Source: Henricia sp. BOLD:AAB3569 (taxonomy: Eukaryota; Echinodermata; Asteroidea; Spinulosida; Echinasteridae). From it: a DNA stretch of 64,000 nucleotides. Below are positions 1,031 through 60,442 of the stretch, piece after piece. The first letter of the stretch is position 1, and every line of letters starts with the position of its first letter. The position numbers and the translations under genes were made by a program. The notes beneath the pieces were generated by a model. It was not told the origin of the DNA, searched no databases, and saw nothing but the letters and a program-made list of their open reading frames with translations. The stretch is from positions 248,001 to 312,000 of the forward strand of contig JBBELK010000453.1 in assembly GCA_037783545.1 (NCBI GenBank), written 5' to 3'.

Positions 1031-1081
1031 ATAATATCACATTATACAAAAATTATTGACTGCAATAAGGGGCATGGTTAA

Positions 1082-1138
1082 GATTATAGGCCCAATGTGA
1101 TCTCGAAGCCGAGGGGTTATCACGGAGGGCCTATAATC
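1082..1138. mobile_element. 57-bp TTAA-flanked MITE, GATTATAGGCCC ends
   Basis: GATTATAGGCCC and its reverse complement end the element, and TTAA lies on both sides (1078-1081, 1139-1142). A relative with the same GATTATA ends and TTAA flanks is at 29270-29375. The right-hand TTAA is also the left flank of the next element. Confidence 0.65.
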
Positions 1139-1142
1139 TTAA

Positions 1143-1681
1143 AGATAGTATAGGACATGATTGGTAAACTGTTACAAATAGTTTTATCCCCCTGTGTGAT
1201 TGAAGATATTCAAGGTAAAAAACCAACCTGAGCAAAAACCAGCTCCGTATACGTCGTCTAACTATTGAGAAAACAGTCAAAAAAGGGTGTACAGTCATTT
1301 CGCCCCCAGACCACTTCGCCCTGAACCACTTCGCCCTGAACCACTTCGCCCTGAACCACCGCCTATGCACGAAGTTGTTTTGGGGTGAAGTGGCTTTTGG
1401 GCGAAGTAGTATTTGGACGAAGTGGTTTGGGGGCGAAATGGCACTTGGGCGATAGTGGTTCAGGACGAAGTGGTCCAGGGCGAAATGGTTTTGGGGCAAA
1501 TTGATTTTACGTCTCGCGAGACGAAAAATAATTGTTTTGCTCATTTCTCAAAGACTATAGCACTTCAGACAAAATCATTTCAGGGGAGGTTTTCTGCCGC
1601 CATCATGTTTATATCGTGTAAGTTATGTGTAAATCTGTGAACATTTCTGATTCTTCGAGATACCAATCATGTATACTGCTT
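1143..1681. mobile_element. TTAA-flanked element with CTTCGCCC minisatellite core, copy 1
   Basis: The ends are imperfect inverted repeats (AGATAGTATAGGACATGATT against AAGCAGTATACATGATT) flanked by TTAA at 1139-1142 and 1682-1685. The centre (about 1305-1500) is a run of 12-16-bp words of the type ACTTCGCCCTGAACC, first on one strand then the other, so it can fold. Open frames across the core are by-products of this repeat. Copies 2 and 3 are at 56238-56726 and 59945-60438. Confidence 0.75.
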
Positions 1682-1685
1682 TTAA

Positions 1686-1818
1686 AGGCACAGGCTCGTC
1701 AGCAATGCGCGCGCGCCATATTCGTGCTACGATATACGCAGCTCCATAGCAAAGGCATGGAGCTGCGTATTTCGTGGCACGAATTTGGCGCGCGCGCATT
1801 GCTGACGAGCCTGTACCT
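1686..1818. mobile_element. palindromic CGCGCG hairpin MITE, copy 1
   Basis: Nearly the whole 133 bp is one inverted repeat: AGGCACAGGCTCGTCAGCAA leads in and its complement leads out, around GCAGCTCCATAGCAAAGGCA. TTAA flanks at 1682-1685 and 1819-1822. TTAAAGG ends resemble the T2/Kolobok group of TTAA elements (inference). Related copies: 2080-2213, 48803-48921, 49536-49664. Confidence 0.8.
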
Positions 1819-2079
1819 TTAACCAATGTTTGTTTTATATACCGAATGCGTAGATTTTTGTCAATAGTAACCGTCGAGTTTCGATTTCGGAAGCTGGAAA
1901 TTAAGGTTGATATTTACATCAAAATATTGGTAGCATAATCACCTGACACTTTGGTAACACATTTCACCTGACACTCTTTTCACTGTTGGCCACTTCTTTT
2001 ATTTTCTTAAGGACTTCATCATCTACGGAGATCAAAATGACTTCGAGATTCCGTAAACAAATGTTACCGGCCTGATTAA

Positions 2080-2213
2080 AGGCACAGGCTCGTCAGCAAT
2101 GCGCGCGCGCCAAATTCGTGCCACGAAATACGCAGCTCCATGCCTTTGCATATGGAGTTGCGTAATTCGTGGCACGAATTTGGCGCGCCCGCATTGCTGA
2201 CGAGCCTGTGTTT
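2080..2213. mobile_element. palindromic CGCGCG hairpin MITE, copy 2
   Basis: Same family as 1686-1818, only about 260 bp away, with TTAA at 2076-2079 and 2214-2217. One end has changed from GTGCCT to GTGTTT. Confidence 0.8.
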
Positions 2214-2399
2214 TTAATGTTTACATGAAGCACGTAGTAGCTGTACTTGGTGCACGGTAGAGATTTCTCAACAGAAACGACTGTGATATTGAATGGCACA
2301 TCACCGAACCGGTTGTGTTCGAACATAACACGCGCGACCGTCACAACAAAATAACATTGAGAAAGTGCGCATGCGGGAGGTTTTACGTTCAATGGGGAA

Positions 2400-2486
2400 G
2401 TGCCCAAAACCATGCAAATGAGGTGCCCAAAATTATGCAAATGTTCCCAAAACTATGCAAATGTGCCCAAAACTATGCAAATGAGA
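2400..2486 (+). promoter_or_regulatory. tandem array of four ATGCAAAT octamers
   Basis: Four near-identical units of about 20 bp (GCCCAAAACTATGCAAATG-like) stand in a row. Each carries ATGCAAAT, the canonical binding site of POU/Oct homeodomain factors, at 2412, 2435, 2455 and 2475, spaced 23, 20 and 20 bases. The array lies about 3 kb upstream of the PDE2A-like start. The motif matches exactly; its activity is inferred. Confidence 0.55.
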
Positions 2487-2600
2487 AGGCGCGGTTTTGC
2501 GCGTCGCGGCTCCATTTCCGTTCTAGTTTTTAATGGAGTTCTGTGGTGCACAAAAAGCCATTCCACACACGTGGCGCGCGCGTCCGGCCGGATCCCGCTA

Positions 2601-2647
2601 AACTGAATATGCCCGGGGCATGTCACAGAGTATGCCCGGGGCATAGT
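2601..2647. repeat. two tandem copies of a near-palindromic ATGCCCGGGGCAT motif
   Basis: ATGCCCGGGGCAT occurs twice, 24 bases apart, between the octamer array and the CCAAT/TATA-like segment. It contains the perfect palindrome CCCGGG. No known factor is assigned. Confidence 0.4.
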
Positions 2648-2689
2648 CAGAATTCTGCATGCACGGGGTCTATGCTATAATTCAATGCC

Positions 2690-2770
2690 CCCACTTTTAA
2701 CCAATCAGATGACAGGAATCTTCGCACGAGGTATATAATTTCGTTTACATGAGGGCTCCCTTAATTGTGC
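2690..2770 (+). promoter_or_regulatory. candidate core promoter with CCAAT and TATA-like boxes
   Basis: AACCAATCAG (2698-2707) is followed about 30 bases later by GTATATAATTT (2732-2742), in the order and spacing of a TATA promoter reading +. The octamer array lies 220 bases upstream. A transcript from here could reach the PDE2A-like exons through a non-coding exon, but no clear donor was found nearby. Confidence 0.3.
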
Positions 2771-3269
2771 ACACGCATAAAAAGATATCAGTTCGGGCGG
2801 AATCATTGCAAATGCATTGGGCAGTTGGAACCCGGCCACTTCCATTGTCCATCTGAGCAAGGTTTTCCGGTAATGTAAATAACTGATTTAATATTGCAAA
2901 GACTGTTAACGGGCTTTAGCATTAATACAAATCAGCTTAGGGCGATGTACAAAGCCAAGGAACAATATTGAGACAGGAAGAGACTTAGCCAAGGTCACGG
3001 AGCCATCTCAATATCAGCTGCTTGTCTCATCCTGCACAAGACGTATCCGGGTTAAATAAATAGAAATTCGAAGAAGAAAAATATGTATACTGGACAAGCA
3101 CAATCGTTTGTTTTTGGACGTCTTCGTCGCGGAAACTGAACCCCGCGGGCAATGCATGAGCGTAGGCGTTCACATTTTGCGTCAGAATTGGGGCCGGTTT
3201 CAAGTTCTCCGGATAAGTGTTTCGAATATATATGTCGATATCTGAGATGTACGGGCGGGTGGCGATTTT

Positions 3270-3480
3270 GGCCGTGGTACATGTGCCCTTGAGCAAGGCA
3301 CTCAACCGCAATTACTCCATCCTTCGAAAGGGATGTAAAGCCGTTAGTCCCGTGTGTTGTATATAAACGCACTTAAAAGATCCCAGAGCATTCTTCGTGA
3401 AGAGTAAAGGGATTCCCCTGTGTTTCTCGCCATTGGCTGCCAATGGCGCCACCCACCTATTATGCATCTCAATGTTAAAA
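3270..3480 (+). mobile_element. SINE body fragment, tRNA head mostly missing
   Basis: It contains GTGCCCTTGAGCAAGGCACT, GGGATGTAAAGCCGTTAGTC, GATCCCAGAGCATTCTTCG and AGGGATTCCCC, shared with the full SINE copies at 19327, 53466 and 59382. Only a trace of the head (GGCCGTGGTAC) remains. Confidence 0.65.
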
Positions 3481-5430
3481 TCCTTTTCTTTTTCCTGTAG
3501 CCATACTGAATTGGCGCAAGTCGTTTTCCACCTGACACCATTATTTGCCTTATGTGCGGTCATGCATGAAACATAATTTAATTAAACTGCTACCAAAAGA
3601 CACAGGATAACTTATTCAAAGTACATGTCAAAACATCTCATATTGGTACACTAAAACACGTAATTAAAAAAGTGTATAGCTTTTACTCGCACTGTAGTTG
3701 TATATCAAGCAGAAGGATTGGAGTTCAATTCTTGTCATCTTTTTCATGCTTTTTAAGATGACACGTCGCGCGACTGCCGATGCCTTGCATGTGCTGAAGG
3801 TGGGTCAATTGCCGCATGCAGTTTCATCCATTTTCGCCAGAATATGAATGTGCCTCCGGCCCTAGACACAAAAGCAAAATTTCACCACTACCAAAAAAGG
3901 CAAAATATATTACTTTCCCCTGCGTGAATAAAGTAGTTTTACCCCGAATAAAGTAATTATGCGAACTAAAAAAAAAACGTGCCAGCAATCTTTACGGTAT
4001 ATATTTAGTCACGAGCCGGATTTTGTTTTGTTTTTGGTAGACTGATGGTTTTTCTGAAACACCGAAAAATCCTATAAGTCCGTCCCGTGGCTTTGCCGTG
4101 CACCGTCAAACGTTTCGTCATGCTCGCCGCGATTCCCGGCTTTATTGGTATACTCCAAATAATTATTGACTGTCAAATTACTTCTGTAAAATATATAATA
4201 AATCATTTGTACCCGAAGGGGGATTCTGCCGTTGCATTAAGTTGTTTACTGTATACATCTTGACCATGACATTCATAATTTTGCTGAGGAATCAAAGAAT
4301 TTACTATGGGGAAATTGGGTTGGTGTAACGTTAATGCTTTCCTTGAGTTCCCGGTTTCCTCTGTGGCCCTGGTTCGAAGCCGGTCCGGGTTGGTATGTGT
4401 GAATTGGGTTTCAGTTGTTTGCTTGATTCCTGTTCCATACCTAGTATAACTTCATCGCAGACGCGAGCACCACTTATATTATATGGATTGTGGTTCTTTT
4501 TAGCAAACGTTTTTTTTACTTCGTGCCAAAAACCTTTATACACATATTTTGTGACTTTTTCTCCTATCACCAACATACTGAAATTGCATCACATAATATA
4601 ACGTCAGAACAGTTCACTGACGTCTGTCGCATCGAATTATCTCGTTCAGTATCATTTCCTATCGTTTGTTTTCGTATTTATCGCGGTATTTTTCAAGTTC
4701 AATGTTCAACAGTCAAGTGCACACATCGTAAATTTGTGTCGTTCATTCTTGCGCTCCGTGTTTACTCAAGGCAGACGCCATAGGGCACTCTGCGACATTG
4801 TTCCGTGTGAAAAGGATGACCTGTTTTCATGAGGATTCCCCAAAAAGGCTTTGTAAAGTACTAACTGAAAGAAATGACCCCTTTTGCAAATACACTCGAC
4901 CCCACCAAATAAGAGAATGAAAACTATTATCTTCGAACTTCGATCAGCAGCCAACTGGCGCTACAAGCCAGACACGAGGCACAGTCCGCTGTGTACATTT
5001 TCCAGTGGCTTTGGCCGTTTGAGCTAGATGGAGCAAATTTTTAAAGCTTCTTAATCACATCCTTTTCGCCGTCTTGAAAGCAGAACTTGCGTTGCCAAGG
5101 AATCAGGTATGCAAATAACTTTCCTTTTTTAGTGGGAAAGTACCCAATCAGCGATCGCTGCACGACCTGCACGTTTAGTTTGTGTTTTGATAGAGGACTG
5201 GCTTGCGCCGCGTTGTGTCGTGCACGTATTTATGGACAGTAGTCTGTACACATGTAATCCAATGCGCGTTCGTTGACTCTCGCTTTTACAAACGTAACGT
5301 AAACATATACTATACACACGAGATCTGTCAGCGTAAACTATGGGATCCAAAGTGTCGATTTTAGAAGAATTTTTCTGCTCAAAACTACCGTGACAGCATC
5401 TAACAGATTAACAGACACAAGTCCTACACC
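3481..5430 (+). promoter_or_regulatory. 5' flank and probable 5' untranslated region
   Basis: This stretch before the start codon is poor in recognisable repeats. An ATGCAAAT octamer lies at 5109-5116, and an AT-rich run (acatatactatacac) near 5303 could act as a weak TATA region. The transcription start cannot be fixed from sequence. A GGTATGC donor-like site near 5105 could end a non-coding exon. No coding signal was seen. Confidence 0.3.
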
Positions 5431-5553
5431 ATGGCGTCGGCTTCACTGGGTCAAATGATCGCCTCGGTGTTTTCCTATTTCAGGGACAAGAGCTGGTTTT
5501 TGAGGTGGCGTGGAGGAGGGGACAAACGATCGGACATGGACGACGAAATGCAG
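5431..5553 (+). CDS. PDE2A: coding exon 1 with start codon, PDE2A-like
   Basis: It encodes 41 residues beginning MASASLGQMIASVF and ending MDDEMQ, then a gtaagg donor at 5554. The start sits in CACCATGG, a very strong Kozak context, and an in-frame TAA at 5401-5403 lies 30 bases upstream, so the start is well bounded. The first 26 residues are hydrophobic and aromatic with a few basic residues (SWFLRWR). The next part is charged (GGGDKRSDMDDE). Known PDE2A isoforms differ in their N termini, which control membrane attachment; whether this end binds membrane is not shown. No classical signal-peptide cleavage site is obvious. The donor leads into a 38.9-kb intron. Confidence 0.7.
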
Positions 5554-7013
5554 GTAAGGAGAGCTACGGTAGTAACACGTTGCTAACAACTGCACCGCCA
5601 ACGGCGAGTTTCGTTTGGCGCCGTTTACAAAAAACATGAAACAAAGTCAAGAAATTAAGACCGTTTTCGTGTGTTTATAGTTGGTTTGAAAAAGCAGTAA
5701 ACATGTTGACCCGTGCTTCATGTTTTCATGCATGCACGGGAGTCAAAATGTTGACTTTAAGATGCAAAATTCATAATAATAGCCCGACTTGAGTGTCACT
5801 TGAAACTTATTGAATTTGTTAGGATTGCCCATGGTACCGGCGCGCCGCCCTGACCGTGTGTATGCAGGCTATGGCGACCGGGACGTGCAGGCCAATAGGC
5901 CCTAGATAATTTTCCGTTTCCTGGTTTGTTTAGTTTCCGGTAATTATAATGGCTGCAAAATTGACCTAAATTTCTGCACCACCAAAACATTTCATCGTTT
6001 GTAATACTGTTGTCAATTTTGAATTGAAGGCTAAAGTTTAACCAAACTGGTGAGAATAAATATTGAGATGTTTATTATTTCTTTAAAATGACTCTAGGAC
6101 TAGGTAGGGACTTGGAAATCTGTGACGTCATCGCGTGCGCACTAGGTACACTAATACTGGTCAGTTTCACAGTGGATTTCTGCCGTGAGAAATGTGCTGT
6201 AAATAAACATCACAGCACTGTTCAATTCCAACTTTTTAAATAGATACTAAGATAAAGCATACTTTCTGACGATATTTATCTTAAAAACGATTGTTTTAAA
6301 TATTTAAATTGGAACACAGCAAGATGTTTGTTTGACGGTGAGATTTCTGGTCCAAATAGGGTAGTTTGTGTTGCGAAACAGACTTGTGAAACCAGCAAAC
6401 AGTATGGGGAGATTGTTGTCTGTGTTTGTGCAAAATGTCAGTGTAAAAAACATGCACTTTGTTTGTTTGTTTTAACACACAAAAATGATTACAGTTCCTC
6501 TTTGTGAGCGTCGCCGAGTGCGTAGTTTTCATTCCAAGCGTAAATGTGTGCTAATACACATTGACAATGATGTTGCGCTCCCCCACGTGTGCTACATACT
6601 CCTGCTGCATTTATAGGTTTTCGTGACAAAGCTTTAGTTTAGCAGAAAACGAGACAGCGTGTTGAACTAAGACTGATCAGACTTGAAGTAGAGGAATTCT
6701 AAGCTGGCTTGGCGCAATATGTCACTGTGGGAGCGCTTCCTACTGCATCGCATTTTTCCAGCTCTCTCCTAATCGGTTTACACACATGATTTCGCGGAAA
6801 AACGGCCGATTTCTAAGATGTATATCTCGGCTACCGCTTGCTCAATTTATGCGATAAATGTTGTTTTGGAATTTACAGAAAATAATCTGTAATGTGAGAT
6901 GATATTTTCAATCAAAATCGAAAAAGTCCCTACTCTAGGCCTAGTTCCATGACTGGCCTACCATGGTCTGGAGGAAGGAAAACATGGGCCTACCAAGGCA
7001 AAGCATTCACTAA

Positions 7014-7572
7014 GGGGTCGTCCATAAAGTACGTACGCATGAAATGCTGACTTTTTAGACCCTCGCTCGCCCCCTGTACGCATGGCATACACAGTGGCTC
7101 CAACCTCCCCTCTCCCCCTGTACGCATACGCATTAGCATTGGTAAGTATTGGTAAATGGTTTAGTACTACATGTATATAGTGCTACATACTACATACTAC
7201 TAGTACGATTCGCATGTCGCCTCCAAAGTCTTAAATAAATGAGATTTCTTTTTCTTTTCTTTTCTTTTTTTTACACATAAAATGACACCAAGCATCAGAA
7301 AGTACAGATTTAATGGGAAAAACCTAAATTGAGGAGTGAGAAAAATGTGAGATGTGTGAGAAAAATGTGTGGCCCGTCTAATATGTTGTGTACATAAGGT
7401 CTGAAGCCGTGGTCAATTTGTCCATCCTTTCCAATTTAGTAAAAGCAAATTTTTGGGTTGCGTACATACGCATTGGCTTGGACAACCCCCTCCCCCCTGT
7501 ACGCATGGTGTACGCAATGTCAACAACACCCCCTTCGCCCCCTCCGTGAGTACGTACTTTATGGACGGCCCC
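7014..7572. mobile_element. PIF/Harbinger-like MITE with GGGGTCGTCCATAAAGTACG ends
   Basis: Inverted ends (GGGGTCGTCCATAAAGTACG against GGGGCCGTCCATAAAGTACG) are flanked by TAA on both sides (7011-7013, 7573-7575). A 3-bp TWA duplication is typical of PIF/Harbinger. Internally, CTGTACGCATGG words repeat. No transposase. A shorter relative is at 15488-15632. Confidence 0.7.
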
Positions 7573-8396: not shown

Positions 8397-8547
8397 TGTC
8401 CCACATATGTGGTGAACTTGAGTTTTTGGCAGAGAGGGTGCAATCGCACAATCCATATGATTGATGATGCAAGGAGTCTATTCTGTACAGAGTCATTGAA
8501 AAGCTACACATTGAAAAGCTGGCGCTCTGAATTGTTCACATGGAGAC

Positions 8548-8793
8548 CTGGGGCCAATTTCATAAAGCTGTTTAGCAGAAAAATTTGCTTAATCAAAAGT
8601 TTGTTTGCTTTATAAAAATGAGTTAATAGCCAAAATTTTTATGTTAACTTGTTTTCTTAGCAAGAATAGCAGATATTCTTGTGAAAAACTCAAATTTACA
8701 TGCAATTTTGTCTATTGACCAATTTTTATAAAGCAAATTTTTTTTTGATTAAGCAAAACAATTTGCTAAACAGCTTTATGAAATTGGCCCCAG
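8548..8793. mobile_element. inverted-repeat element, CTGGGGCCAATTTCATAAAG ends
   Basis: The 246-bp element has long arms: about 30 bases at each end pair (…AATTTCATAAAGCTGTTTAGCA), then AAATTTGCTTAATCAAAA pairs with TTTTGATTAAGCAAA. No flanking duplication is clear. The same kind of end is seen at 51878-52146. Confidence 0.7.
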
Positions 8794-8799
8794 TTCAGT

Positions 8800-28422: not shown

Positions 28423-28784
28423 AGACACTTTGGAGCCTGTTACAATGTAAGTACAGTATAGTTATTAGTGGCTTGTGCACAGACCCTCATCCATGCCTCG
28501 CTAATCGTCAGTATACCAGAGGCTGGTCTCATCCAAGGTCTCTCCTGATTGGATAGTCAATAGATCTGGGGACTGACTTTAATAATTGCCCAGGGTTCAA
28601 ATTCATGGCACTGTTTAGCAGAAAATATTACCCAATTTGCCATAGAATAGCTTCCAAATTCAGAACTCGAGTAGAAAATGTCAGGCCTACTTTTAACTAT
28701 CAGATAGTAAAAATCTATACATTGGGTATATTAAACAAATATTGACTTTTTTATTCTGGTCATGATTAAAGGTCTACTGTATAA

Positions 28785-28900
28785 TTGGCAATGACCCCAA
28801 AATTTCATCAACGAGTTGATAGGGAAACCTTCCTCAAAGTAATTGAATGAAATGTTTCCGCCCGAGATGATATCATTTTACCAGAAAATAATCCATGAAG
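28785..28900 (+). repeat. dispersed repeat R6, partial copy
   Basis: CCCAAAATTTCATCAAC, GGGAAACCTTCCTCAAA and TTCCGCCCGAGATG align with 33255-33490 and 52975-53087. Confidence 0.5.
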
Positions 28901-29186
28901 ATGAAATTATTTAGATCGTTTGCAAACGATTTACTTCTCATCTGGGCGGTCCGAAATGGGCGCTGTGTTACTGCGTGTGTGCTGTTTTAACGCGATGCAT
29001 TTTCTATGGGTTGCCCGCACACGCAGTACAACGCGCGCCACAGAGTGAATGACGCAAGCCACAGAGTACGCGACCGACTTAGAACGAATATTTGAAACGC
29101 CCCGCCAAGACCGGCAAAACGCATATATATGGATTTTGATGTTTTTGGAAAACGTGGTACATTGTGCAGAACTGAAATTTCTTCGG

Positions 29187-29265
29187 ATGAGTTTGTTGAT
29201 GTCCTTCTTTTGATTTATAATGGTTTTATTCCCAAAATCGCTCAAAAACATTATCTATATGGCCA
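29187..29265 (+). repeat. dispersed repeat R7, copy 1
   Basis: About 80 bases nearly identical to 42882-42968: TCGGATGAGTTTGTTGATGT, CCTTCTTTTGATTTATAATG, GTTTTATTCCCA. It lies directly against the TTAA element at 29270. Confidence 0.65.
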
Positions 29266-29269
29266 TTAA

Positions 29270-29375
29270 GATTATAAGCCCTTGGTAATTTCAAAGCCAT
29301 GACTATGATCCTTGGCTGAGCCTTGGTGCATAGTGATGGCTTGGAGATCACCTTGGGTCTAGTACATGTATAATC
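29270..29375. mobile_element. TTAA-flanked MITE, GATTATA ends
   Basis: GATTATAAGCC at the left and TATAATC at the right, with TTAA at 29266-29269 and 29376-29379. Relative of the 57-bp element at 1082-1138. Confidence 0.65.
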
Positions 29376-29541
29376 TTAACCATGACTCTCATTGCAATAA
29401 ATATCTGAATACTTATGTACTAGCCATTTGTACAGTAAGTTGTAGGCCTATACAAAATTATATGAATTCAAATTCATATTTTTTTGCCAAATGAAAAGCG
29501 AAAGTTGGTTCTTTCCAAAACTGTAATATTAAGCCATTTAA

Positions 29542-30114
29542 AGGGCCTGTGACATGCTAAACAACTTTGTGCCTAAGCTTTGCTTCATAATGACGGATTA
29601 CTTGTTCAGCAAAACATACTATTGTTCGTTTGGATGTAAAATCAATAAAAGGTGGCCTTTTTCAACTTTGAAGATTTCATTGCAATAAATCACAGACAGA
29701 GGGCGCTGTTTTGAGTGCATCACATAAGGAAGACAGAAGGGAAAAGTTAAGAAAAAACATAAGACTTCAAGTTGGACTTGTGGCAAATTGCTGCAGTTTC
29801 TACCCCCAGTTTTGTCATGGCTTACAGCAGGCAACATGTAAAACAAACTCAAACAGCCATGGATTACAAAAGTTTCAGGAAAATTGAGAAAAAAGTGGAA
29901 TCTTTTGTGCACAGTTAAATGTGATTTTCCTGTGTTTGCCTCTTGTGACATCGTGACCTTGGTCATGAATATGCATATTCGCATTAGCATAAAAACTAAA
30001 AACCTTTGTTTTAACCCCCAAAGCAAGCTCCAAATAGGATTTTTATGACTTTAACTGAATAGAGTGGTTTTAAAGCATAGATTTCATTGATAAAAATCCT
30101 AAATAAGGGGCCCT
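29542..30114. mobile_element. TTAA-flanked element R3, copy 1
   Basis: TTAAAGGGCC and GGCCCTTTAA end a 573-bp element (TTAA at 29538-29541 and 30115-30118). Internal landmarks shared with 55350-55916 (reverse) and 31835-32358: GAGGGCGCT, GTTTTACATGTTGCCTG in reverse, GATGTCA and CATGAGCAAAG/CATGAATATGCATA. TTAAAGG ends fit the T2/Kolobok type. The 135-residue minus-strand frame inside is not recognisable as protein. Confidence 0.72.
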
Positions 30115-30539
30115 TTAATGCCTAAGAGATGGCTTACATACCGGTACAGGTACTTTAGTTGTAGTTACTGTAGACTAACGGTTTCAAAAGTGACCTAGAC
30201 AAAAGTTGATTACAATATGACATGCCCTAAAAGTCAATGTGGTGTGGTCAGTTTTTACCTTTTTCTTTCATTTTCTAAATTTGTTCAGAATAATATGTTT
30301 GCAAGTGGAATACATGTAACAATATGAAACATCCTGTTGATTTGTTTGGGTTGGGTTTGTCAGTTTGTTTTGCTTTCTAATAAAATGAGATTAATTTTTT
30401 TGTTAGGAGAGGGAACTAGAAAATTATTTAATCATTAAAATTTAATCACACTTTTAGTGAAAGTGTCCAGTAGTGTTAAAGCGATACAGAGCGCCCTCAG
30501 GTGGTAAAAATAAGATATGCCTCCCTGCCAAAAATGAGC

Positions 30540-30657: not shown

Positions 30658-31834
30658 ATATGACTTCAGCTTTTATTTTATGCCATATCGTGTAAACTTT
30701 TGATTTTTATGACAATTCAAAGATCGGGTCAAAAAGACATACTGGTACTCTAGTTTTTCGGTTCGGATATAAATGAGTATTTCTGAGAAATATACTTACT
30801 GTGTAGCAACAAGCATGTTAGAAACATTTAGTACAGTGTCATGCATATTACAGCGTCAAATTATTTTTACAATTACAACACGATTTTTGTCAGATTTCTT
30901 TAAAGCAAATCACAAATACGCACAGTATCCTTTTACATCCCTGGTGACGTCCTGCGTACTTCAATATATCCGTTCTCTTCACGAATTGTTTGCGTGTTTG
31001 CGGATCATGTTTTTCTCTCCGTCTCGTATTGAACCACCTGCTTGCTCCGTAGTAACGACAGTTTAGTTTGTTGCCGTCGTCGTTGGCGCACCACGGGGGC
31101 GCGAACGACGGCCGTTACCGCATTGCTTCGTAATTTTACAGGTGCTTGCAATGGAGGGAGCAAACGGAGGCTTTTGTTCAGGTACATGTACATGTACATG
31201 CAGTCTCTCCCCCTCCCCTCTTTCACATCGCCCTCCTCCTTGTTGACTTAGACGTGATATGCTTCTCAAGCTAGCCAGCCAGAAGGCTCTCCGATCTATT
31301 TGCAGCTGGCAAGATCACGATCGGGGAGCAGAAGCAAAGTCCGCGTAAAACCCACTAAATTCTACCCCTTCTGACATTTAATAGCTCCGCTCATCTCGCG
31401 CGCACTCCCCCTCCTGCTAATTGCCAGTGGCTGCAAAGTGTTTTGTTTTGCGTGGAATGTGTAATTTGTGCACCGCTCGTGAGGAAACCGTGATAGGTAC
31501 GTTCAGCTGTCATTTGAGAAGGGTAGCACTGAACTGCTGTACTTTGTGCTAATGCTAATGCACGTGTTTCTGAGGAAGAAAGGATTATCGAGAACATTGA
31601 TTTCTCTCATGTTCAACTAAATAGTTTCTGATACATGTATGTGCACATGTGGTATTGTACCTGTTTACCTCAGTTTGTGATATACATGTAAGGGACTGCA
31701 GTGTTTGACAATTGTGGTTTCTTTTTCAGGGCATCAAAACATGACATAATGTTAAACTCTTTAAACAGGCTCCGTAGCTTTAAAATATGCAACATTCCTC
31801 CTGTAAGATGGGTTTCCTTAACTCGTCCATTTAA

Positions 31835-32358
31835 AGGAACACACCGGCTTTGTTGGGCTATTTTGGGCTCGAAATAGACCAAAAACACATTTCAGAGAAT
31901 TTACTAGATGTGTTTTGGTGTAATTGCAAGTTTTCTATTTTTATGCTAATGAGAATTTCCATATTCATGAGCAAAGCGGTGATGTCATCTCAGGACAACA
32001 GAGGAATCATCTATAGACTTGTGTACAAAAGTTGGTGTCATTTTCAGTGGCTTGATCTTGATATCATGAACTGTAACAATTCACTGAGTTTGTTTAGTAT
32101 GTCATTTGCATCAATCCCAACAAGTTTGTTTGAGTCAAGAATGGATCAGTTGGCTACTGTTTCAATTTGAAATGTAATGTTCTTTCTTTGTTTTTCAACT
32201 GTGGGTTCCCTCCATGACCAGCGATAAACAGCGCCCTCGACTATGAAGAACATTTTTGAGTGTAGACAAGTTTGAGTTTGCCCTTTTGTCTACAGCAGTT
32301 TGATCTTTTGATTTGTGTATAAAACCAACTGACTGATAATTTTCATTTCACTAAACCT
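31835..32358. mobile_element. TTAA-flanked element R3, diverged copy
   Basis: TTAA at 31831-31834 and 32359-32362; ends AGGAAC… and …AAACCT. Internal TTTTTATGCTAATGAGAAT, CATGAGCAAAGCGGTGATGT and CAGCGCCCTCGA are shared with the reverse of copy 1 and with copy 55350. Confidence 0.65.
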
Positions 32359-33254
32359 TTAAGTTTTAAAACCATAGTATGGTGTTTAGACAGTTTCACA
32401 TCTAATCTACATGTATGTCACCTCTGTGACCTGCGTATGTTAAGGCCGTATTCAACCGCCGAACGTGCATAGAACAAACTTGTGCGTCATTTATGTAAAT
32501 TAACAGAAGTCAGGATACAGCACTGGGACTTGTGACCTGTTTCTAGAAATTACGAATGCATCAAAGTACTTTGAACTCAACTCCGCATCTTATGACACCT
32601 TTGCAGATCATATTAAATTATTTAAGTGCCTCTGTAATATTATGGGCCTACACTAAAAGCTTTCGGGGAGAAAAAGTAACTTACAATTTGCATTTTAGAA
32701 GACCTGATCAAAGGTTATCCCACATGGGGCTTACCAAGCATTAACTTGGATAGACTTAGGGTAAAAATAAAAGGGTTTCTAGCCTACATGCAAGTGTATT
32801 TTTAAAAGCAATACACAATTTATCACACTTTCCCCTCGCTACATGTATGGGTATACTGTATATTTTTAGGCTTGTTTAAAGGCTGTTTGTATATATTCTT
32901 TTATAGACATTTCTTGTAATATGAAGTGGTGCCTTGAATGCATTTAATAAAGGCCTTCCACACTCACCAGTTCTAACCCGGTTAACTTTTCTACCCAGAT
33001 AAGGATTTCTTTTCACACTGCAAGTTTTGCCCTGGAAAAACGCCTGCCCGGGTCGTTTCTTACATGAGTACAGTTCATGAACTGTATGGTACAGCTTAGT
33101 GGTCCTTCATGTTGTTTATTATTATTATAACAATAATAAAAATAATAAAACTGTTTACAATTCAAATTTGCCATCTTTTTTCTGGAAAATACTTTGGGGC
33201 ATTTGATGATGGATAATTCCCATGCAAATAGCCATTGAAGAGGTTAAAGTCTGT

Positions 33255-39435: not shown

Positions 39436-39525
39436 AAATGATATAAGGTTCATCTGCAAATGATATAATGGGCGTTTAAAAACTGAATGTAATTCAGGCC
39501 ACAGCTCTGAGAGTCGTTTAAAGGC

Positions 39526-42968: not shown

Positions 42969-43891
42969 GTCAACCTGTCCCCAATTTTCCCCTTGTCATC
43001 TTGGACTTCCAAGTGATTGCCAAGAATCATCACCCACGAAGTCAAGCATTTTAATCCTGTAAAATGAAGACATACTTCCACATTGGGTGGCCCTGACAAG
43101 GCCACGCATCAAAGCGACTTAATTACCGGCAGTTTCTGAAGCATAGATTGGATGATGAAGGCGGAGTCACTCACTTATGAAGACAACGTAATGAATGTAA
43201 ATGCAAAATGCTTGAAATTGGTCATGAACTGATTGCAATTTAGGTGTAGTTCAGCGGATTGAATGACTTGGAGGAAGTGCACAGCAGTGCACAGCAGATG
43301 TACCATGCAGTGTATTTATTAAGGATTTTGGGAGCCTTCAACTCGTACTTTATAAGGTTGCTTAAAGGGACTGTGTCACGGTTTGCGCATGCGACAAATC
43401 CTTTCAATTTTTGACATACATGGGCGCTCAGATGAATGTTGTGCAATTTTGTTACACAATGCCATTGGTTCGTGTGCGTAAATGTACATCGTGTACTTAG
43501 CACATGCTGCATGGGCAGTATACAGTGTTCACGAGTGTTTACAATACGCAGAATTCAACTACATATACTGTAGTACATCGTTTTGCGCGCCTTCGTTCGA
43601 TTTTGCATCCCGCTCGCACGATCAATGTCTGGAAAAATAGTTACAGCGACGGCGGCCACGGTGTCTTTCCATCGACAGAAGATGTGCTGTAAAATTGTTG
43701 TCAGGACCAAATAAGCATACCGGTTTGGGTAGAAATCAAGGTTGAACAAATTGCTGTATCCAACCATGTCATTCATATCATTGGATGTCATTTCTGTCGT
43801 GTTTTGTCTGGTTTTTTTATGGGATGAAAATACTCTCTTTCGAACGACGGCTGCACACCCGGTGATATTGATGTTTGACGGCTTAAAAATA

Positions 43892-44290
43892 GGCCTGCCG
43901 ACTTTCGCGGAACGCCTGCCGACTTTCGCGGAACGCCTGCCGACTTTCGCTGAACGCCTGCCGACTTTCGCGGAACGCCTGCCGACTTTCGCGGAACGCC
44001 TGCAGACTTTTGCGGAATGCCTGCCGACTTTCGCGGAACGCCTGCCGACTTTCGCAGAACGCCTGACGACTTGCGCGTTTTCCGCCTGCCGACTTTCGCG
44101 GAATGCCTGCCGACTTTCGCAAAACGCCTGCCGACTGTCTTATGATACACCTGCCGCGGAATGCCTGCTGACTTCTGTGAAATACCTGCCAACATTTGCA
44201 AACTTTTGCAAAGGCCTGCTGCCTTTTGCAAACGCTTCCAGGCTTTGGCGAACACCTGTCGGATTTGGCAAATACCTGTTGGCTTACATA
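43892..44290 (+). repeat. 21-bp minisatellite next to exon 2
   Basis: Units of CCTGCCGACTTTCGCGGAAC G repeat about a dozen times at 43892-44140 with few changes, then decay to 44290. As 21 is a multiple of three and the unit lacks stops, one + frame (LPTFAER repeats, 185 codons) and two minus frames stay open. No start context, splice signal or known protein supports translation. It ends about 150 bases before exon 2. Confidence 0.85.
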
Positions 44291-52945: not shown

Positions 52946-52974
52946 GGCAATGCTCATTGTTGAAGCCCATACAG

Positions 52975-53087: not shown

Positions 53088-53904
53088 GGTTATTCCCAAA
53101 ATTACCGTAGGAGTCAAAAATTGTTGGTGTCCCAGTTATGTACGACACTCTCTGCTTCAAAAATCACCCCTCCTGATCACAAATTCTCAGTAATGGACTG
53201 TGGCCTGTGATCATAGGGGGCAGCATCATTTTCTTCAATATTTTGTTCTCTGATTCCTGAAAAATATTTAAAACAAAAGACCATAACGGCTTATAATTTG
53301 TTCCATGGTATTGAATAGGAGTTTGGTGTCCCGGGTTACCTACGCCAATGAAAATTGGCTGTAGAATGAGTTTGCATTAACCTTGGTGCCATATTTACAC
53401 CCAAACATTACATTTAAGTGGCATTTGTTGAAATAAAAATAATTATTATCTACTGGGAAACCACTTTTTTTTAATTATTATTTCTTTCTGGTATTCATAC
53501 CAAGGATTCCTCAATAGTGCTCATGGCACTGTCACTCGCAAGCGTGAGGAAACCCATGAAGAATTAGAATTAGAATTGGAAATGGCCAGAGACACCGGGG
53601 ATGATCCCCCTTGCTCCTCACGAAAGAATGCTCTGGGATCTTTAGAGTGCGTTTTCATTACCTAACACACTGGACCAACGGCTTTACATCCCTTCCGAAG
53701 GATGGAGCAAGTGTGGTTGAGTGCCTTGCCCAAGGGCACAGGTACCGTAGCCGTAGGGAGGTTCTAACCCGCAACCCCAAGTTTTCACCTGTAATAGCGA
53801 GTCAATGACCTAAACCGCTCGGCCACGGTACCCCACTTTTAATCACTAAAAACACTTGGAAATCTTAAAAAGCATGTCACACTTTTGGACCCCTAATTTT
53901 GGGA
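53088..53904. mobile_element. inverted-repeat element inserted in R6 and itself holding a SINE
   Basis: ATTCCCAAAATTA near the left boundary pairs with TAATTTTGGGAAT near the right; the next bases (GGAGTCAAAAA against TTTTGGACCCC) continue the pairing imperfectly. R6 resumes right after it. No clean target duplication was visible. Confidence 0.45.
53466..53837 (-). mobile_element. full-length tRNA-derived SINE, young copy A
   Basis: On the minus strand: head GGTACCGTGGCCGAGCGGTT, GTCATTGACTCGC, GGGTTAGAACC, then body CCTTGGGCAAGGCACTCAAC, GGGATGTAAAGCCGTTGGTC, GATCCCAGAGCATTCTTTCG, then TTCATGGGTTTCCTCACGCT, ending with ATACCAGAAAGAAATAATAA. A Leu/Ser-type tRNA origin fits the head. Copy B at 59382 is nearly identical. 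Confidence 0.85.
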
Positions 53905-54005: not shown

Positions 54006-54174
54006 ATTTTATATTTGCCAGGGTAACTACACGTAGGTCTAAACATTCGTGGGTAATCTAAAACGTCCATTGCTAAAGGGAAACAGCTCACTGGTTTTAA
54101 TGTAGACCCAGTAACCTTGGCAACATGCTAAAGATGACGTTTTCACTTCAGTAAGTGTATTGCTTCATTTGCAG

Positions 54175-54284: not shown

Positions 54285-54660
54285 GTAAGCTTTAATTACG
54301 CTTCCATCCGCTTGATATTTTTGCTGTTAAAGACAAAAATCTGTCACTATTGCTTACAAAATTTTACCCACTGAAAAGCTGATACGAACTACATAAAGAT
54401 TGTCAATTTCAGCATTGTTTTGTACTATTGGCACCGCTATTTATGATTTTGTCTGAATGGCAATACACTAAAAAGTTGTACTGCAAAACTGTCAATTTAT
54501 AGTGATTGCATTCCAGTCGTTGCAGAGAATTAATTGCTGATGAGTTCTTTGCGATGGTCAGTGCTTTCGCAAAGTGTATGTAAAATCGGAATAAAAAATT
54601 AATCGCTAATTTGCGAAAAATTTACAATTTATCAAAAAATATGAAACTTTTAGAGATTAA

Positions 54661-54999
54661 TGCTATGTTTACACCGAAGCACGACCAAGTTAGGGTCGAC
54701 TTACGAGTTGTAAAATTCTGTATTTCTTGGACTTGTGAGTGGTCATGAAACCTTTGTCAAGGGGGCGACCGAGAAAGTTTCCTGACCGTTTTGAACCGTT
54801 CTATACGGTCGGGGAACTTGTGCCGAGCGATGGCGATTTCCCCCGAGTTATTGCGAGTGTTAAGAACTAACTTACGACCTTCTAACATAGGAGGAACTTA
54901 AGATCTTGCTGACCAACTCCTGAGGAAATGCCATTTTGACCAATTTTTGTTTGTAAATCACTCTCAAGTCCCTCGGGATTTTGGTGTAAACAGGGTATT
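54661..54999. mobile_element. word element with TGTTTACACC ends
   Basis: GCTATGTTTACACCGAAGC at the left and TTTTGGTGTAAACAGGGTA at the right pair imperfectly. ACTTACGA, GGTCG and CCCCGAGT words repeat inside. Confidence 0.55.
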
Positions 55000-55349
55000 A
55001 GTGAAATTAGCCCCAGAATTTATGAGTTAAAAAAAATAAAGAGCCTTTTTAACACCGATCCTTTTCTGAAAGTCATACGAATTGATGACCATTTCTTATG
55101 GTACTTTGTCAACCGAGTTACTCGGCCTAAACATGCATATCCTGTCCGCGAGTGCGACCCACTTACGGTCAAAAGAACAGGGGAAACAAATTGTGTGTTA
55201 CGTACGTGTTGACGGCCTGGAGCACTCACCGTCCAGCACCTGACAAAATGTAATCACTCGTGGTACAAGGGAAAATAAGAAGGATTCTGCACCTTATAAG
55301 TTGTTAGGCAAAAACAGAAAGAAGATATTTTTGACACAAGTCGCTTTAA

Positions 55350-55916
55350 AGGGCCCTTGAAATGGTGTTTTTATCAATGAAATCTGTGCTATGGAACTAG
55401 TCCATTAATTTACAATCATAAAAACCCTACTTGGAAGTTGTTTGGGGGGTTAAAATCAAGGTTTTTGATTTTTATGCTAAAGAAAATTTACATATGCATG
55501 AGCAAAGTGGTGATGTCACATTAGGAAAACACAGGAAAATCTCATTCAACTGTGCACAAAAGTTTCCACAATTTTCTCCAACTTGCTGAAACTTGTGTAA
55601 CCCATGACGGTTTAGGTTTGTTTTACATGTTGCCTGTTGCAAACCATTAAAAAAACTAAGGCTGGAAACTTCATCATTTTTCCACAATTCCAGTTTGAAG
55701 TCTTATGTTTTTTCTTTGCCTTTCTGCTGTGTGTTCCTAAAGTGACATGCCGCAAAGAGCGCCCTCTTTCTGTGAGGTTATGTGAAGAAATTTTAAAAAA
55801 TGTTAAAAAATGCTTTTTATTCACGGGGCATCAAAATGAACAGTGGTATTGTCTTTCTACACAAGTAATCCTTCATATGCAGCAAAAACTGTGCATAAAG
55901 TTATTGAGCTAGAATA
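55350..55916. mobile_element. TTAA element R3, reverse copy with one end lost
   Basis: TTAAAGGGCCCTTGAAATGG at the left (TTAA 55346-55349). Body is the reverse of 29542-30114: TTTTTATGCTAAAG, CATGAGCAAAGTGGTGATGT, GTTTTACATGTTGCCTG, GAGCGCCCTC, CAAGTAATCCTTCATATGCA. The far terminal repeat is missing. Confidence 0.65.
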
Positions 55917-55939
55917 CATGATTGGAAAACTTTTAAAAA

Positions 55940-56233
55940 CAGGAACAACAGCATTACATTATAACTAAAGAATAATGTTGATAAACTGCCTTGTAGAAAT
56001 TTCAGCCACGTAGATGCAGTAAATTCTTCAGAAAACCTGAAAAATCCATGCATTTGTTTGTGTTAAGTGAATGGTAAAACATTTTTTAAAGCACCTTCAG
56101 TTGGCAATTTCTCCCACAAAGGTACCACTTTACCAAGGGGAAAAATCGCATGATGTTTGTTACCATTGCTTTGAAAACTTTGTCAGAATTTTCTTGTCAA
56201 CTTTTGGGTAACTGCAAATGATGTAATGGGGCT
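55940..56233 (+). repeat. dispersed repeat R2, most complete copy
   Basis: Runs from CAGGAACAACAGCATTACAT to GATGTAATGGGGCTTTAA, directly against the TTAA element that starts at 56238. Confidence 0.65.
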
Positions 56234-56237
56234 TTAA

Positions 56238-56726
56238 AGGTAGAACACATGATTGGTATCTCGAAAATTAGAGAATGTTCACAGATTTACACATAACTTA
56301 CACAATATAAACATGTTGACGGTAGAAAACTTCCTCTGAAATGGTTTTGTCTGAAGTGCTACAGTCTTTGAGAAATGAGTAAAACAATTAATTTTCGTCT
56401 CATGAGACCAAAATTATTTTCGCCCCAAAAACCACTATGACCAAACGCCACTTCGCCCAAAAAATACTTCGCCCAAAAAATACTTCGCCCAAACACCACT
56501 TTGCCCAAATGCCACTTCGCCCCAAAACCACTTTGTGCACAGGTCGTGGTTCAGGGCGAAGTGGTTTTGAGGCGAAGTGACTGTAACACAGTTTTTGACT
56601 GTTTTCTGAAAAGTTAAACGAAGTACGGAGCTGATTTTTGCTCAGGTTGGTTTTAATCATGCATATCTTCAATCACACAGGAAGATGAAACTATTTGTAA
56701 CGGTTTACCAATCATGTGTTCTACCT
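56238..56726. mobile_element. TTAA-flanked CTTCGCCC-core element, copy 2
   Basis: AGGTAGAACACATGATTGGT A is repeated exactly in inverse at the right end (21 bp), with TTAA at 56234-56237 and 56727-56730. The core (about 56420-56580) holds AAAACACTTCGCCC-type words changing orientation at a GTGCACAGGTCG centre. It lies in reverse relative to copies 1 and 3. Confidence 0.82.
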
Positions 56727-57084
56727 TTAACCTACTCATATTGTTTTTCCGGTTAGTTTTTTTCTGAGTACTTGTGGAGAGCATTTGCACAACAGATGGT
56801 GTTGCCTTGATCCAATAAAACCGAATAAATGAATAAGAAATTGACTCAATAGTGCAGGTTAAAATGGTAACATGGTACAGTGCTGTAAGTAAAATGAACT
56901 TTGTAGATAAAATGGTTTAGAGTGTAACTCTTGCCACAGCTTTTGCTTCGACTAAATAAAATTTATTTTTAAATGTTTCTGCAGTGGAAAATTATAATAT
57001 TGGTGCCTAGAATTACATGTATGTATTTCTTTCTGAAAAAAATTAACATATTTTAACATCAAGAATATTGTTCTAAAAAAAAAA

Positions 57085-57525
57085 AAAATTACACAAGAAG
57101 GCTGAGAGATGTAACATACATGTATTTTATCGGTCAGTATTCAGTGATGTGTATGAAGCCCTGTTGTGGCAACAGGAACCAGCCTCCGTGAGCCACTGAA
57201 GCAGGGTGTGCCACTCTGCTTGAAGTGCCTCCATGAGCTCTGCACTTCTAGGGCTGTTTTGGAGATCCATGGCTCCAGAGGTACACATACCACATGTACA
57301 AATGTAAGCTCATCCCACGCAGGTTTAAACAGGTTCAATGCACAAACAAAAAAAGGTTTTCTGAGTGACCTCAAATGTAGGATTTCCCAGAAACGGGAAA
57401 CATTTCATCGCTGTGGAAATTACTTTGTTCAAACAGGTACACTTGGACCTGGCCAAAATCACTAAAAGCAGAACAGTTTTGAAAGCGACTCAAGTGATGA
57501 GTCGATCAGTGCCATGTTATCTACA
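57085..57525 (+). repeat. dispersed repeat R1, copy 2
   Basis: Second copy of R1, in intron 4. The two copies bracket the gene fragment 57 kb apart. No terminal inverted repeat or target duplication was seen. Confidence 0.6.
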
Positions 57526-57559
57526 CATGTATCCACAAGTTCACTGTATTAAATAAGCA

Positions 57560-58429
57560 TTGCTCTGATCAAGAATGGATAACAAAATTGTATTTTTTGG
57601 GGAGGGCATATATTGGGGGTGGGGCATTTTTATTGTATAAATTGCTCCAGAATAAGGTCAGTAAATTTCAGTTGAAATCAATTTGAATATCGTTCTACTA
57701 ATAGTGCAATAAATCGTAGTGCACTAATTGCGCATAGATTAATAGGATTTTCGGTATGACTTGAATTGTGAGGGTTTTTATAAGTGGCTCATCCAGTTAT
57801 AAATTTCCCCGAGTAAGAAGTTAATAAACCTGATTGCTACAGCATTCATTATTCCTGCAAGGCATATAACCCCCTGTTGGTCCCCCTGCCGTTTCTCCCA
57901 TACTCCCTGCCTGTATTTCATCTCGCCGTCTTAATTACATCCATCCGAATACTCTTCTCTCTCTGCTAGTCCCAATATCCGTGACAGCTTCTTTAAATTA
58001 TCCCATCTTTTCGTCACGTCCCCGGTTTTGTGTGTGTGTGTGTGCGTGTTGCATGCTATCGGTGGTTCCGTCACGTTTAATTGGTGAGAAATTGCCGCTC
58101 TGATAGCGATCAGGGAACAGTGCGCGGTGGTTACCGCAGTTTGTCAGTAGGGAGGTTCTTATCGGTTCGTAATATCAGGGCCGTGTGCGTCTGGCAGCCC
58201 CGGGGTGTCAAACATTGGAGAAATCTTGAAAGATAATTTGCCGTTGCTGTTGGCGGGAATTTTTATGCGTGAATATCAAAATTTGGTACATTGGGGATGT
58301 TTGGCTGCAAAACAAAGTATTGTTTGTCCTATAGCTCGTGAGAAAAAACTCATATTTCAGTATATTGTAGCTATTTTTACCAAACACTAAAATAATAATT
58401 AACCTTTTGTGCTTAAAAGCAACGGAAAA
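57560..58429. other. intron 4 stretch, repeat-poor
   Basis: 57840-58020 is C/T-biased and mixed, with no recognised repeat. No exon could be placed. Confidence 0.3.
58025..58050 (+). repeat. short GT microsatellite
   Basis: About nine GT units with one GC step. Confidence 0.75.
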
Positions 58430-58635
58430 TAACGGGTAACGCGAAGTTTCTATCCGGAAAATAGTAGAGCATGCTGGTAGAAATTACCCATGTTAGAATT
58501 TACCCGGGTTAAGTGGGGTTTTAAGGCAGTTAACCCAGATAATTTCTAACCCCGAGAAGTGTAGTGTGAACGCTCCAAATTACCCGGTTAATCTGAGGGT
58601 TAAATTTTCTGTTAACCCCGAGATAACCCGGGTAA
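58430..58635. repeat. word element of ACCCGGGTAA / TAACCC words
   Basis: TTACCCGGGTTA, AACCCCGAGA and ATTACCCGGTTAAT repeat in both orientations around AGTGTGAACGCTCC. AACGGGTAACGCGAAGTTTC at its left also occurs in reverse near 26760 and, in part, near 26320. Confidence 0.5.
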
Positions 58636-58659
58636 CGGCATAGTCTATAAGAGTATTCT

Positions 58660-58715
58660 TACATGTGCGCTATACAAGAATCCACCATTATCATTATTAT
58701 TACTAATAAATGCTC
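58660..58715 (+). repeat. isolated SINE/LINE-type 3' tail
   Basis: TGTGCGCTATACAAGAATCC ACCATTATCATTATTATTAC matches the tail near 13940. Confidence 0.5.
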
Positions 58716-59381
58716 TACTATTATATTACGACGGATAGACAGACAAAGAGATAACAAAAGATCTTTTCATGTCCTCGAGCATTGTCTCTTTTGTTTGAGC
58801 CGGTCGTCGATCATACATTCATGTGCTTTCTCTACGGGGGAGAGTTAGAGTTCAGGAACAAAAGGGAAGCAGAAAGGATATTCCTCGATCGTTATAGAGT
58901 AAAACATGACTGTATAGTAAAACAAGCCTGTGCTTTCAGGTAACCTTTGCGAAGGTACCAGTTTTAATTTACCGAATCATCACTTCATCAGTTGCACCAT
59001 ACAGAAGCCCGATAAATTTGTCTAGCGTCGTGACACTTCTCTGATGCCGGACCTAATATCCGGGTTTAGTGTCAGCGCCTCGTAATTGATGATCCCAACT
59101 GAACTTCCGCAATATATTGGACTTGTAAACCTCGCAATCACGGCTGTCCATGCTACATGTAACACGTACTCTTCATCACGCCGCCTTCATTCAGTCGTGC
59201 TGTTTTAGTGGAATGCTGGTTTATCATTGGTTTCATTGCGATACTTGGATAAGATTCAGAGATGGTTTTTTTCCCAGTGAGTTGTGAAACTAAAGAGGCA
59301 TTCCCATTTAAAGCCTTTTTTGTTAAGCTACAGTATAGTGGTTGTGCGGTAGTACTTTAAAATTAAATCCAGTGGGGATTA

Positions 59382-59757
59382 TTATTATTATTATTATTAT
59401 TATTTCTTTCTGGTATTCATACCAAGGATTCCTCAATAGTGCTCATTGCACTGTCACTCGCAAGCGTGAGGAAACCCATGAAGAATTCTAATTAGAATTA
59501 GAAATGGCCAGAGACACCGGGGATGATCCCCCTTGCTCTTTACGAAAGAATGCTCTGGGATCTTTAGAGTGCGTTTCCATTACCTAACACACTGGACCAA
59601 CGGCTTTACATCCCTTCCGAAGGATGGAGCAAGTGTGGTTGAGTGCCTTGCCCAAGGGCACAGGTACCATAGCCGTGGGGAGGTTCGAACCTGCAACCCC
59701 AAGTTTTCACCTATGATTGCGAGTCAATGACCTAAACCGCTCGGCCACAGTACCCCA
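59382..59757 (-). mobile_element. full-length tRNA-derived SINE, young copy B
   Basis: Nearly identical to 53466-53837 from head (A-box GTGGCCGAGCGG, intact B-box GGTTCGAACC) to the ATT-repeat tail (59382-59404). Same orientation as copy A, 5.9 kb away. Confidence 0.88.
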
Positions 59758-59944
59758 CAATTATTTCTACATGCATGGAGAAATAATTTACCTGTACATG
59801 TAACATGTCAAGTTACCGTGATGTCAAATTTACAGGCCAAGATAGGACACACAAACTTTATGCTCAGCCATAGTACATATGGGCCTTTTTCCAAATCTCG
59901 ACTTAGGCTCAGGCTGCTCAGTAATAGCAGCAATGCACACTTAA

Positions 59945-60438
59945 AAGATAGTATAGATGCGTAAACTGTTACAAATAGTTGTATCCCCGGCCCCCCTGTG
60001 TGATTGAAGATATGCATGATAAAAACCAACCTGAGCAAAAACCAGCTCCGTACTTCGTCTAACTTTAAGAAAATAGCCTAAAAGGGGTTTGCAGTCATTT
60101 CGCCTTAAAAACCACTTCGACCTGAACCATTTCGCCATGAACCTCGGCCTGTGCACGAAGTGGTTTTGGGGCGATGTAGTGTTTGGTTGAAGTCATTTGG
60201 GGTGAAATGGCACTCGGGCGAAGTGGTTTGGGGGCGAAATGGCACTTGGGCGAAATGGTTTTGGGACGATTTGAATTTTCGTCTCATGAGACGAAAACTA
60301 ATTGTTTTACTCATTTCTCAAAGACTATAGCACTTCAGACAAAACTATTTCAGGGGAAGTTTTTTACGGTCATCATGTTTATATTGTGTAAGTTAGGCGT
60401 AAATCTGTGATTTATGCAGTATATAATGTATACTGCCT
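59945..60438. mobile_element. TTAA-flanked CTTCGCCC-core element, copy 3
   Basis: TTAA at 59941-59944 and 60439-60442; ends AAGATAGTATAGATGCGTAA and ATGTATACTGCCT. Flanks of the core (AAAACCAACCTGAGCAAAAA CCAGCTCCGTA; GAGACGAAAACTAATTGTTT TACTCATTTCTCAAAGACTA) match copies 1 and 2. The core has fewer words. Confidence 0.78.
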
Positions 60439-60442
60439 TTAA

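Follow-up and report, generated by a model that had tools for sequence, protein, structure and literature searches.

Which of the TTAA-flanked repeats in one stretch of a Henricia sp. genome are elements that end at the TTAA, and which transposases would have moved them? The stretch, called the window here, is 64 kb long (contig C453:248001-312000); the assembly comprises 740.7 Mb in 2104 contigs. An earlier note on this DNA had claimed twelve TTAA-bounded non-autonomous elements from about seven families. The window holds about a dozen short non-autonomous TTAA elements resembling miniature inverted-repeat transposable elements (MITEs), and their ends at TTAA are documented below by other copies and by empty sites. 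Very probably they are of two TTAA-inserting kinds: elements with AGG ends, which would depend on Kolobok transposases, and two elements (P1 and P2) which would depend on piggyBac transposases.

TTAA is found 501 times in the window, one per 128 bp, and base composition predicts about 504, so that TTAA at both ends means little alone. A scan of the window for inverted ends gave 25 TTAA pairs vs 39 AATT pairs; a second scan gave 13.5 pairs per 1000 TTAA sites, control tetramers ranging from 1.7 to 25.7. Inverted-end scanning was dropped as proof of TTAA elements, other palindromic tetramers being as frequent or more. This low specificity is probably due in part to the GCGC/CGCG-rich hairpin of family C. 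Because TTAA plus inverted ends is uninformative, two other tests were used: whether other copies, in the window or at further loci, stop at TTAA between unrelated flanks, and whether there are empty sites carrying a single TTAA. Copy-end comparisons across loci and the list of filled and empty sites were judged by eye. L-numbers designate further loci read from the same genome. The comparison set includes fifteen 10-kb stretches from 15 contigs (20 requested), loci around C ends and transposase loci. The C loci are 28: L001 to L008, and 20 taken from a single contig in list order, not at random. Some are repeats of one another (L002 = L001, L008 = L007, L053 = L051).

All twelve listed positions follow an intact TTAA, each coordinate being the first base after it, and most of the twelve stand as elements (Table 1). 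Both ends are fixed by other copies in six (B1, C1, C2, D3, C3 and B3). P1 and P2 are each single in the window, their ends being dispersed genome-wide. One end is confirmed in D1 (the right one, by one copy) and in B2 (the left one). The elements placed after the TTAAs at 1082 and 29270 (A1 and A2) had to be given up: similarity to other copies passes the TTAA by 24-35 bp. The families among the twelve number six, or five if D1 and D3, which have a common core of about 105 bp, are counted as one group. Element R was missing from the list. Further candidate TTAA ends of repeated families are found at 578, 15730, 23581, 24627, 30655, 39476, 42964 and 43362.

B1, B2 and reversed B3 align over most of their length; they end at TTAA and their flanks differ. 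At the right end of B2, matches stop 32 bp short of the TTAA. B ends (TTAA plus 10 bases) are found 6307 times genome-wide and 4 times in the reversed control. In the window, family C is a near-palindrome of 119-134 bp with ends AGGCACAGGCTCGTCA. Its ends are found genome-wide 13181 times as TTAA plus 13 bases and 8605 times as TTAA plus 24 bases, the reversed patterns 0 times. Of the 28 loci picked by one C end, 19 have a partner end; the other 9 have none within 450 bp. The pick set no condition on the flank of the partner end, and this flank is TTAA in 17 of the 19 and TTAT in 2. At L001 (contig C1, about 53.7-54.4 kb), two C copies with identical 10-base flanks are 512 bp apart; the C element there seems to be part of a tandem duplication.

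R has a full copy in L010 (2409-2947), TTAA to TTAA, with unrelated flanks. The outer ends of the D2+E1 mosaic are matched on the left by 30118 only and on the right by 581, 30658 and L011. The TTAA at 55933 was rejected as a boundary between two elements: it is internal to E, similarity beginning up to 22 bp to its left. The A1 and A2 hairpins were likewise rejected as TTAA-ended elements, their TTAAs being internal to a longer palindromic repeat (A-star); ends extending beyond the TTAA are what the earlier note had named as a refutation. Similarity of A1 passes the left TTAA by 35 bp to L003 and by 24 bp to 29403, and A-star similarity in general overruns the TTAA on the side without another insertion. 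The arm around A1 resumes at 1824-2053, beyond C1. A continuation of the 42878 repeat past A2 was searched for and none was found. The TTAAs in A-star were landing sites: in the second copy R occupies the left TTAA, and in the first copy B1 and then C1 occupy the right TTAA.

For four insertions an unoccupied counterpart carries a single TTAA and the filled site two; the duplication of the flanking TTAA that the earlier note had supposed was found for families C, F and R. One C insertion is filled in L048, and L020 and L015 are empty with a single TTAA. R is filled in the window and empty in L003 at 2967-2970. A second C insertion and the F insertion have their empty sites in the window (Table 1). 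TTAA target site duplication, a mark of T2-type/Kolobok elements, is therefore present for C (two loci) and R, and also for F. The listing of filled and empty sites includes 15 comparisons with TTAA near both insert edges and 262 without; among 15 displayed of the latter, 11 are C copies differing by internal deletions. For 22 joined candidate intervals, a search of the window alone found no empty sites.

The AGG ends can also be counted without reference to families. The enrichment set is the window plus the 7 of the 15 stretches that have little tandem repeat (70 kb elsewhere). AGG adjoins TTAA 24 times in the window vs 7.6 expected from nearby positions (3.2-fold, P 1.4e-6), and 20 times in the 70 kb vs 8.3 expected (2.4-fold, P 4e-4). 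Among 15 control tetramers, the lowest P values are 0.045 in the window (GTAC) and 0.027 (CCGG, 4 vs 1.1) and 0.034 (ATAT) in the sample. The excess is about 16 ends in the 64-kb window vs about 12 in the 70 kb. By this measure the window is not special in TTAA/AGG density, and the concentration of elements in one window, to which the earlier note had pointed, adds little.

Some elements share a TTAA: one is common to B1 and C1, another to E1 and B3. C adjoins ends of other TTAA families in L003, L015, L035, L036, L042 and L051. Exact B-C junctions number 25 genome-wide vs 8.6 expected, about threefold (P 4e-6). The null takes the B ends (6307), the C ends (13181) and a TTAA total of about 4.84 million, extrapolated from the sample; an error of 10% in that total would put the expectation at 7.8-9.4. 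Under this simple null the B-C excess is firm, and its source may be insertion clustering, shared ancestry or pairs moving together. It favours, to some extent, an account in which abutting chains such as B1-C1 in A-star and E1-B3 are compound elements moved as units. That account is nevertheless improbable: B also adjoins E, C also adjoins H, F, G and D3, the B-C pairs of the window, L015 and L036 have different outer flanks on the C side, and C-C junctions (4 vs 9.0 expected genome-wide) are not in excess. A little less probable still is a general rule that unlike TTAA elements adjoin beyond chance, an element end being a preferred landing site or pairs travelling together, so that chains build. 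C outer flanks begin with AGG in 5 of 48 cases vs 1.2 expected (P 0.007; L014, L018, L021 and L023 left out). The C-C count argues against a landing preference, as does AGG facing AGG across a sampled TTAA (1 vs 0.8 expected); a preference of C for self-insertion was rejected on the same C-C count. An overall junction excess in the random sample was also rejected (3 vs 0.86 expected, P 0.056; L014 and L023 left out).

Both end types named in the earlier note, TTAA-AGG (Kolobok/T2-like) and piggyBac-like, are present. P1 and P2 have TTAA flanks and inverted ends starting with C, as piggyBac non-autonomous elements do. Exact ends number 311 in the genome for P1 (TTAA plus 14 bases) and 299 for P2 (TTAA plus 13 bases); both reversed controls gave 0. 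Among 100 places listed, inward-facing pairs of P1-type ends are 111 to 805 bp apart. piggyBac transposase (PF13843) has at least 116 matches in the genome, 105 of them without stops within the match; this is a lower bound, 116 of 422 candidates having been scored. L027 and L028, TTAA-bounded with TTAA-CCCTTTCAATACC on one side, share 98.7% identity across 2951 bp. Such a near-identical pair indicates that a TTAA transposase, here piggyBac, has probably been active recently, in line with the earlier expectation of an active one, present or past. TTAA-bounded inverted ends around the transposase are convincing in 4 of 8 piggyBac loci (L027, L028, L030 and L031). P1 agrees at 11 of 14 bases with the piggyBac CCCTTTCAATACCA end (one end of L027 and L031). 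No transposase was found between exact P1 or P2 ends among the loci read, and P2 ends have no match among the eight piggyBac loci read. piggyBac transposases, abundant in this genome and seemingly active in recent times, would most likely have moved P1 and P2 (TTAA-CTCTTTCAGTGCCA or TTAA-CACGTTGACTGCC ends).

P1-type ends are far denser in C79 than in the other contigs listed: C79:21280-362860 has twelve in about 340 kb; nine are on the minus strand, and no two form a close pair. In C23:5029810-5029953, at two places separated by about 114 bp, P2 ends stand back to back across a common TTAA, which looks like a chain of P2 elements. The piggyBac matches also form arrays: C153:664409-682593 (8524 bp apart), C296:357984-376206 (8537-8549 apart), others in C424 and C215, and C1249:1304-82721 (eight copies, several about 7994 apart). 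Array members mostly have open frames. Large piggyBac arrays are already described in PMC2872659.

Elements of the form TTAA-AGG...CCT-TTAA (B, C, D, D3 and R; E with AGC) would most likely have been moved, now or formerly, by Kolobok-superfamily transposases, presumably by cut and paste. Judged from their ends and target, a role of Kolobok is somewhat better than an even bet. Kolobok elements are marked by TTAA duplication and 5'-RR termini (both PMC6004289 and PMC9587614), and T2-MITEs end in AGGRR (PMC6004289). Termini of the 5'-RR...YY-3' type are found in B, C, D, D3, R (in L010), E, G, K, Q and H, which start with AG or AA. The exceptions are the right end of R in the window (TG), the J end at 39476 (AC) and family F (AC). 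AGGRR is found only in G, K, Q and the left end of D3; because B, C, D and R lack it, the listed families are not filed as T2.

Profile searches gave no partner among the loci read. PF20700 matches 5 places in the genome; the two loci read were rejected, being without good TTAA-bounded inverted ends, and the stronger is KolobokP-like. THAP matches 101 places; the two multi-copy loci read were rejected, both encoding DDE_Tnp_4 proteins. THAP matches in open frames of at least 331 aa include C616, C329:4120249, C430:222880, C1249:43317, C431, C636 and C175. A cluster of PF20700 matches at C871:239306-249085 (L032 in part) has an open reading frame like His-Me homing endonucleases (PF05551) nearby. 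It resembles a KolobokP multimer in its PF20700 transposase, in that endonuclease-like frame and in its repeated copies, as far as PMC9587614 describes these elements. KolobokP duplicates 3-5 bp and has no strong preference for a target (PMC9587614), and it is therefore an unlikely partner of the AGG families.

Cross-mobilisation of all families, AGG included, by the abundant piggyBac transposases would make Kolobok unnecessary; in its favour, no TTAA transposase other than piggyBac turned up in this genome. This account is quite unlikely. Transposases of the piggyBac type are presumably choosy about ends, and the piggyBac elements with readable ends here start with CCC. Left ends of coral piggyBac MITEs also start with CCC (PMC2872659), and the AGG ends match the Kolobok/T2 type (PMC6004289).

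Several observations weigh against the attribution of these elements to two TTAA-inserting kinds moved by Kolobok and piggyBac. No TTAA-type Kolobok transposase was identified by the PF20700 and THAP profile searches of the genome, whose models may not cover it; the Kolobok attribution is therefore drawn from ends and target. Ten AG-starting ends are not significantly alike past three bases (P 0.08-0.16), although E and R, which resemble each other, can only raise the likeness in this test. A common subterminal motif of these families was accordingly rejected, and the ends do not speak for one transposase serving all AGG families; the earlier proposal that one or two transposase types may mobilise many unrelated sequences stays a conjecture. 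Family F ends in AC, which fits neither RR nor typical piggyBac. A C-ended 1.8-kb interval was rejected as an autonomous element, the 701 bases read having given a stretch resembling a Tc1/mariner transposase. On the piggyBac side, P1 ends differ from the piggyBac ends read at 3 of 14 bases, and no convincing TTAA-bounded end pair was found for L024, L025, L026 and L029. A P2-ended 2.27-kb element was rejected as autonomous, no transposase being recognised in it by reading, with no family search made. The L048 target site has a third copy within the window, and there it reads TCAA. Inverted-end scans alone are not specific to TTAA. When satellite stretches are included, AGG is in excess also beside AATT, GCGC, GGCC and TCGA, for which reason satellite-rich stretches were left out of the enrichment test.

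That the TTAA flanks are fortuitous, any repeats having TTAA near their edges, is suggested by the frequency of TTAA (every 128 bp) and by the two listed elements that proved to be of this type (A1 and A2), but it is highly improbable given the filled and empty sites, the 17 of 19 TTAA-flanked C partner ends and an AGG excess beside TTAA well above that of 15 control tetramers, and it is already refuted for B, C, R, F, D3 and the right end of E, a refutation that does not extend to D1 at its left end or to B2 at its right end.

Table 1. Elements, hairpin cores and empty sites in the window, sorted by family. Positions are those of the window and include the flanking TTAAs.
Feature	Position	Strand	Description
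A1	1078..1142	.	Not TTAA-ended; hairpin core of palindromic repeat A-star; B1 and C1 in right TTAA
A2	29266..29379	.	Not TTAA-ended; second A-star hairpin copy; left TTAA interrupted by R
B1	1139..1685	+	AGG-type, B family; sits in repeat A-star; TTAA 1682-1685 common with C1
B2	59941..60442	+	B family; left end confirmed; right end by TTAA only
B3	56234..56730	-	B family; 16/16 inverted end bases; TTAA 56234-56237 common with E1
C1	1682..1822	.	Hairpin MITE, ends AGGCACAGGCTCGTCA; other C copies stop at TTAA
C2	2076..2217	.	C-family hairpin MITE; copies stop at TTAA
C3	48799..48925	.	C-family hairpin MITE; copies stop at TTAA
C4	49532..49668	.	Decayed C copy; flanking TTAAs now TTAC / TGGA
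Empty TTAA site of C insertion	8589..8592	.	Filled in L020; L011 also empty
D1	29538..30118	+	AGGG-ended; right end matched by 55346; left end only TTAA plus AGGG
D2+E1	55346..56237	+	892-bp TTAA-bounded mosaic, D-like part and E-like part
D3	31831..32362	-	AGG-ended; core common with D1; left end by L049, right end by L042
Empty TTAA site of F insertion	53414..53417	.	945-bp F in L016; L028 also empty
P1	34557..35041	.	piggyBac-like, non-autonomous; first 14 bases identical at both ends (CTCTTTCAGTGCCA)
P2	47800..47920	.	121-bp piggyBac-like MITE, ends CACGTTGAC
R	28766..29269	+	504-bp TTAA-AGG element inserted at TTAA of repeat A-star

Other repeats were met in the window and the sample. A 371-bp repeat is found at 53466-53836 and at 59388-59758 (95% identical). 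In L016 and L028 the flanks of 53468-53832 are joined directly, so that the repeat looks like an insertion there. Its end is presumably tRNA-derived; Rfam gave no match there. A tandem array with a 21-bp unit (GCCTGCCGACTTTCGCGGAAC) occupies 43872-44199. L014, L018 and L021 are almost wholly satellite (95-96% of 16-mers present at least 4 times), L023 to 61%; the satellite period in L014 is 297 bp.

Many TTAA MITE families in one genome are already known, as described for Xenopus T2 (PMC6004289) and coral CMITE (PMC2872659) elements. What is added here is the documentation of TTAA miniature families in a 740-Mb genome that also has many open-frame piggyBac copies, with two false members corrected. 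The families are of use for repeat annotation, and they raise the question whether unlike TTAA elements prefer landing side by side. They look like further members of the Xenopus T2 and coral piggyBac MITE kinds. X. tropicalis has 16 T2-MITE subfamilies, attributed to Kolobok (PMC6004289). The AGG families are like these, as PMC6004289 presents them, in the TTAA target, the terminal AGG, the many subfamilies per genome and the non-autonomous state; unlike them, they have AGGRR only in G, K, Q and the left end of D3, and a matching Kolobok transposase was not found here. P1 and P2 share with the autonomous piggyBac elements (PF13843) the genome and the TTAA bounds, those of L027, L028, L030 and L031, and the CCCTTTCAATACC ends of the latter resemble P1; P1 and P2 differ in being without transposase and in their exact ends. 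Corals have MITEs related to piggyBac that are flanked by TTAA, are of several end types and form tandem arrays (PMC2872659). The likeness extends to the TTAA duplication, here presumed, the small size (121 bp for P2 vs about 100 bp for CMITE) and the tandem arrays, and the left end of CMITE VI, given as CCCTTTCACTGCCA, is close to P1 CTCTTTCAGTGCCA (PMC2872659). Unlike coral CMITE, P1-type end pairs are 111 to 805 bp apart among the places listed, and P2 has CACGTTGAC ends.

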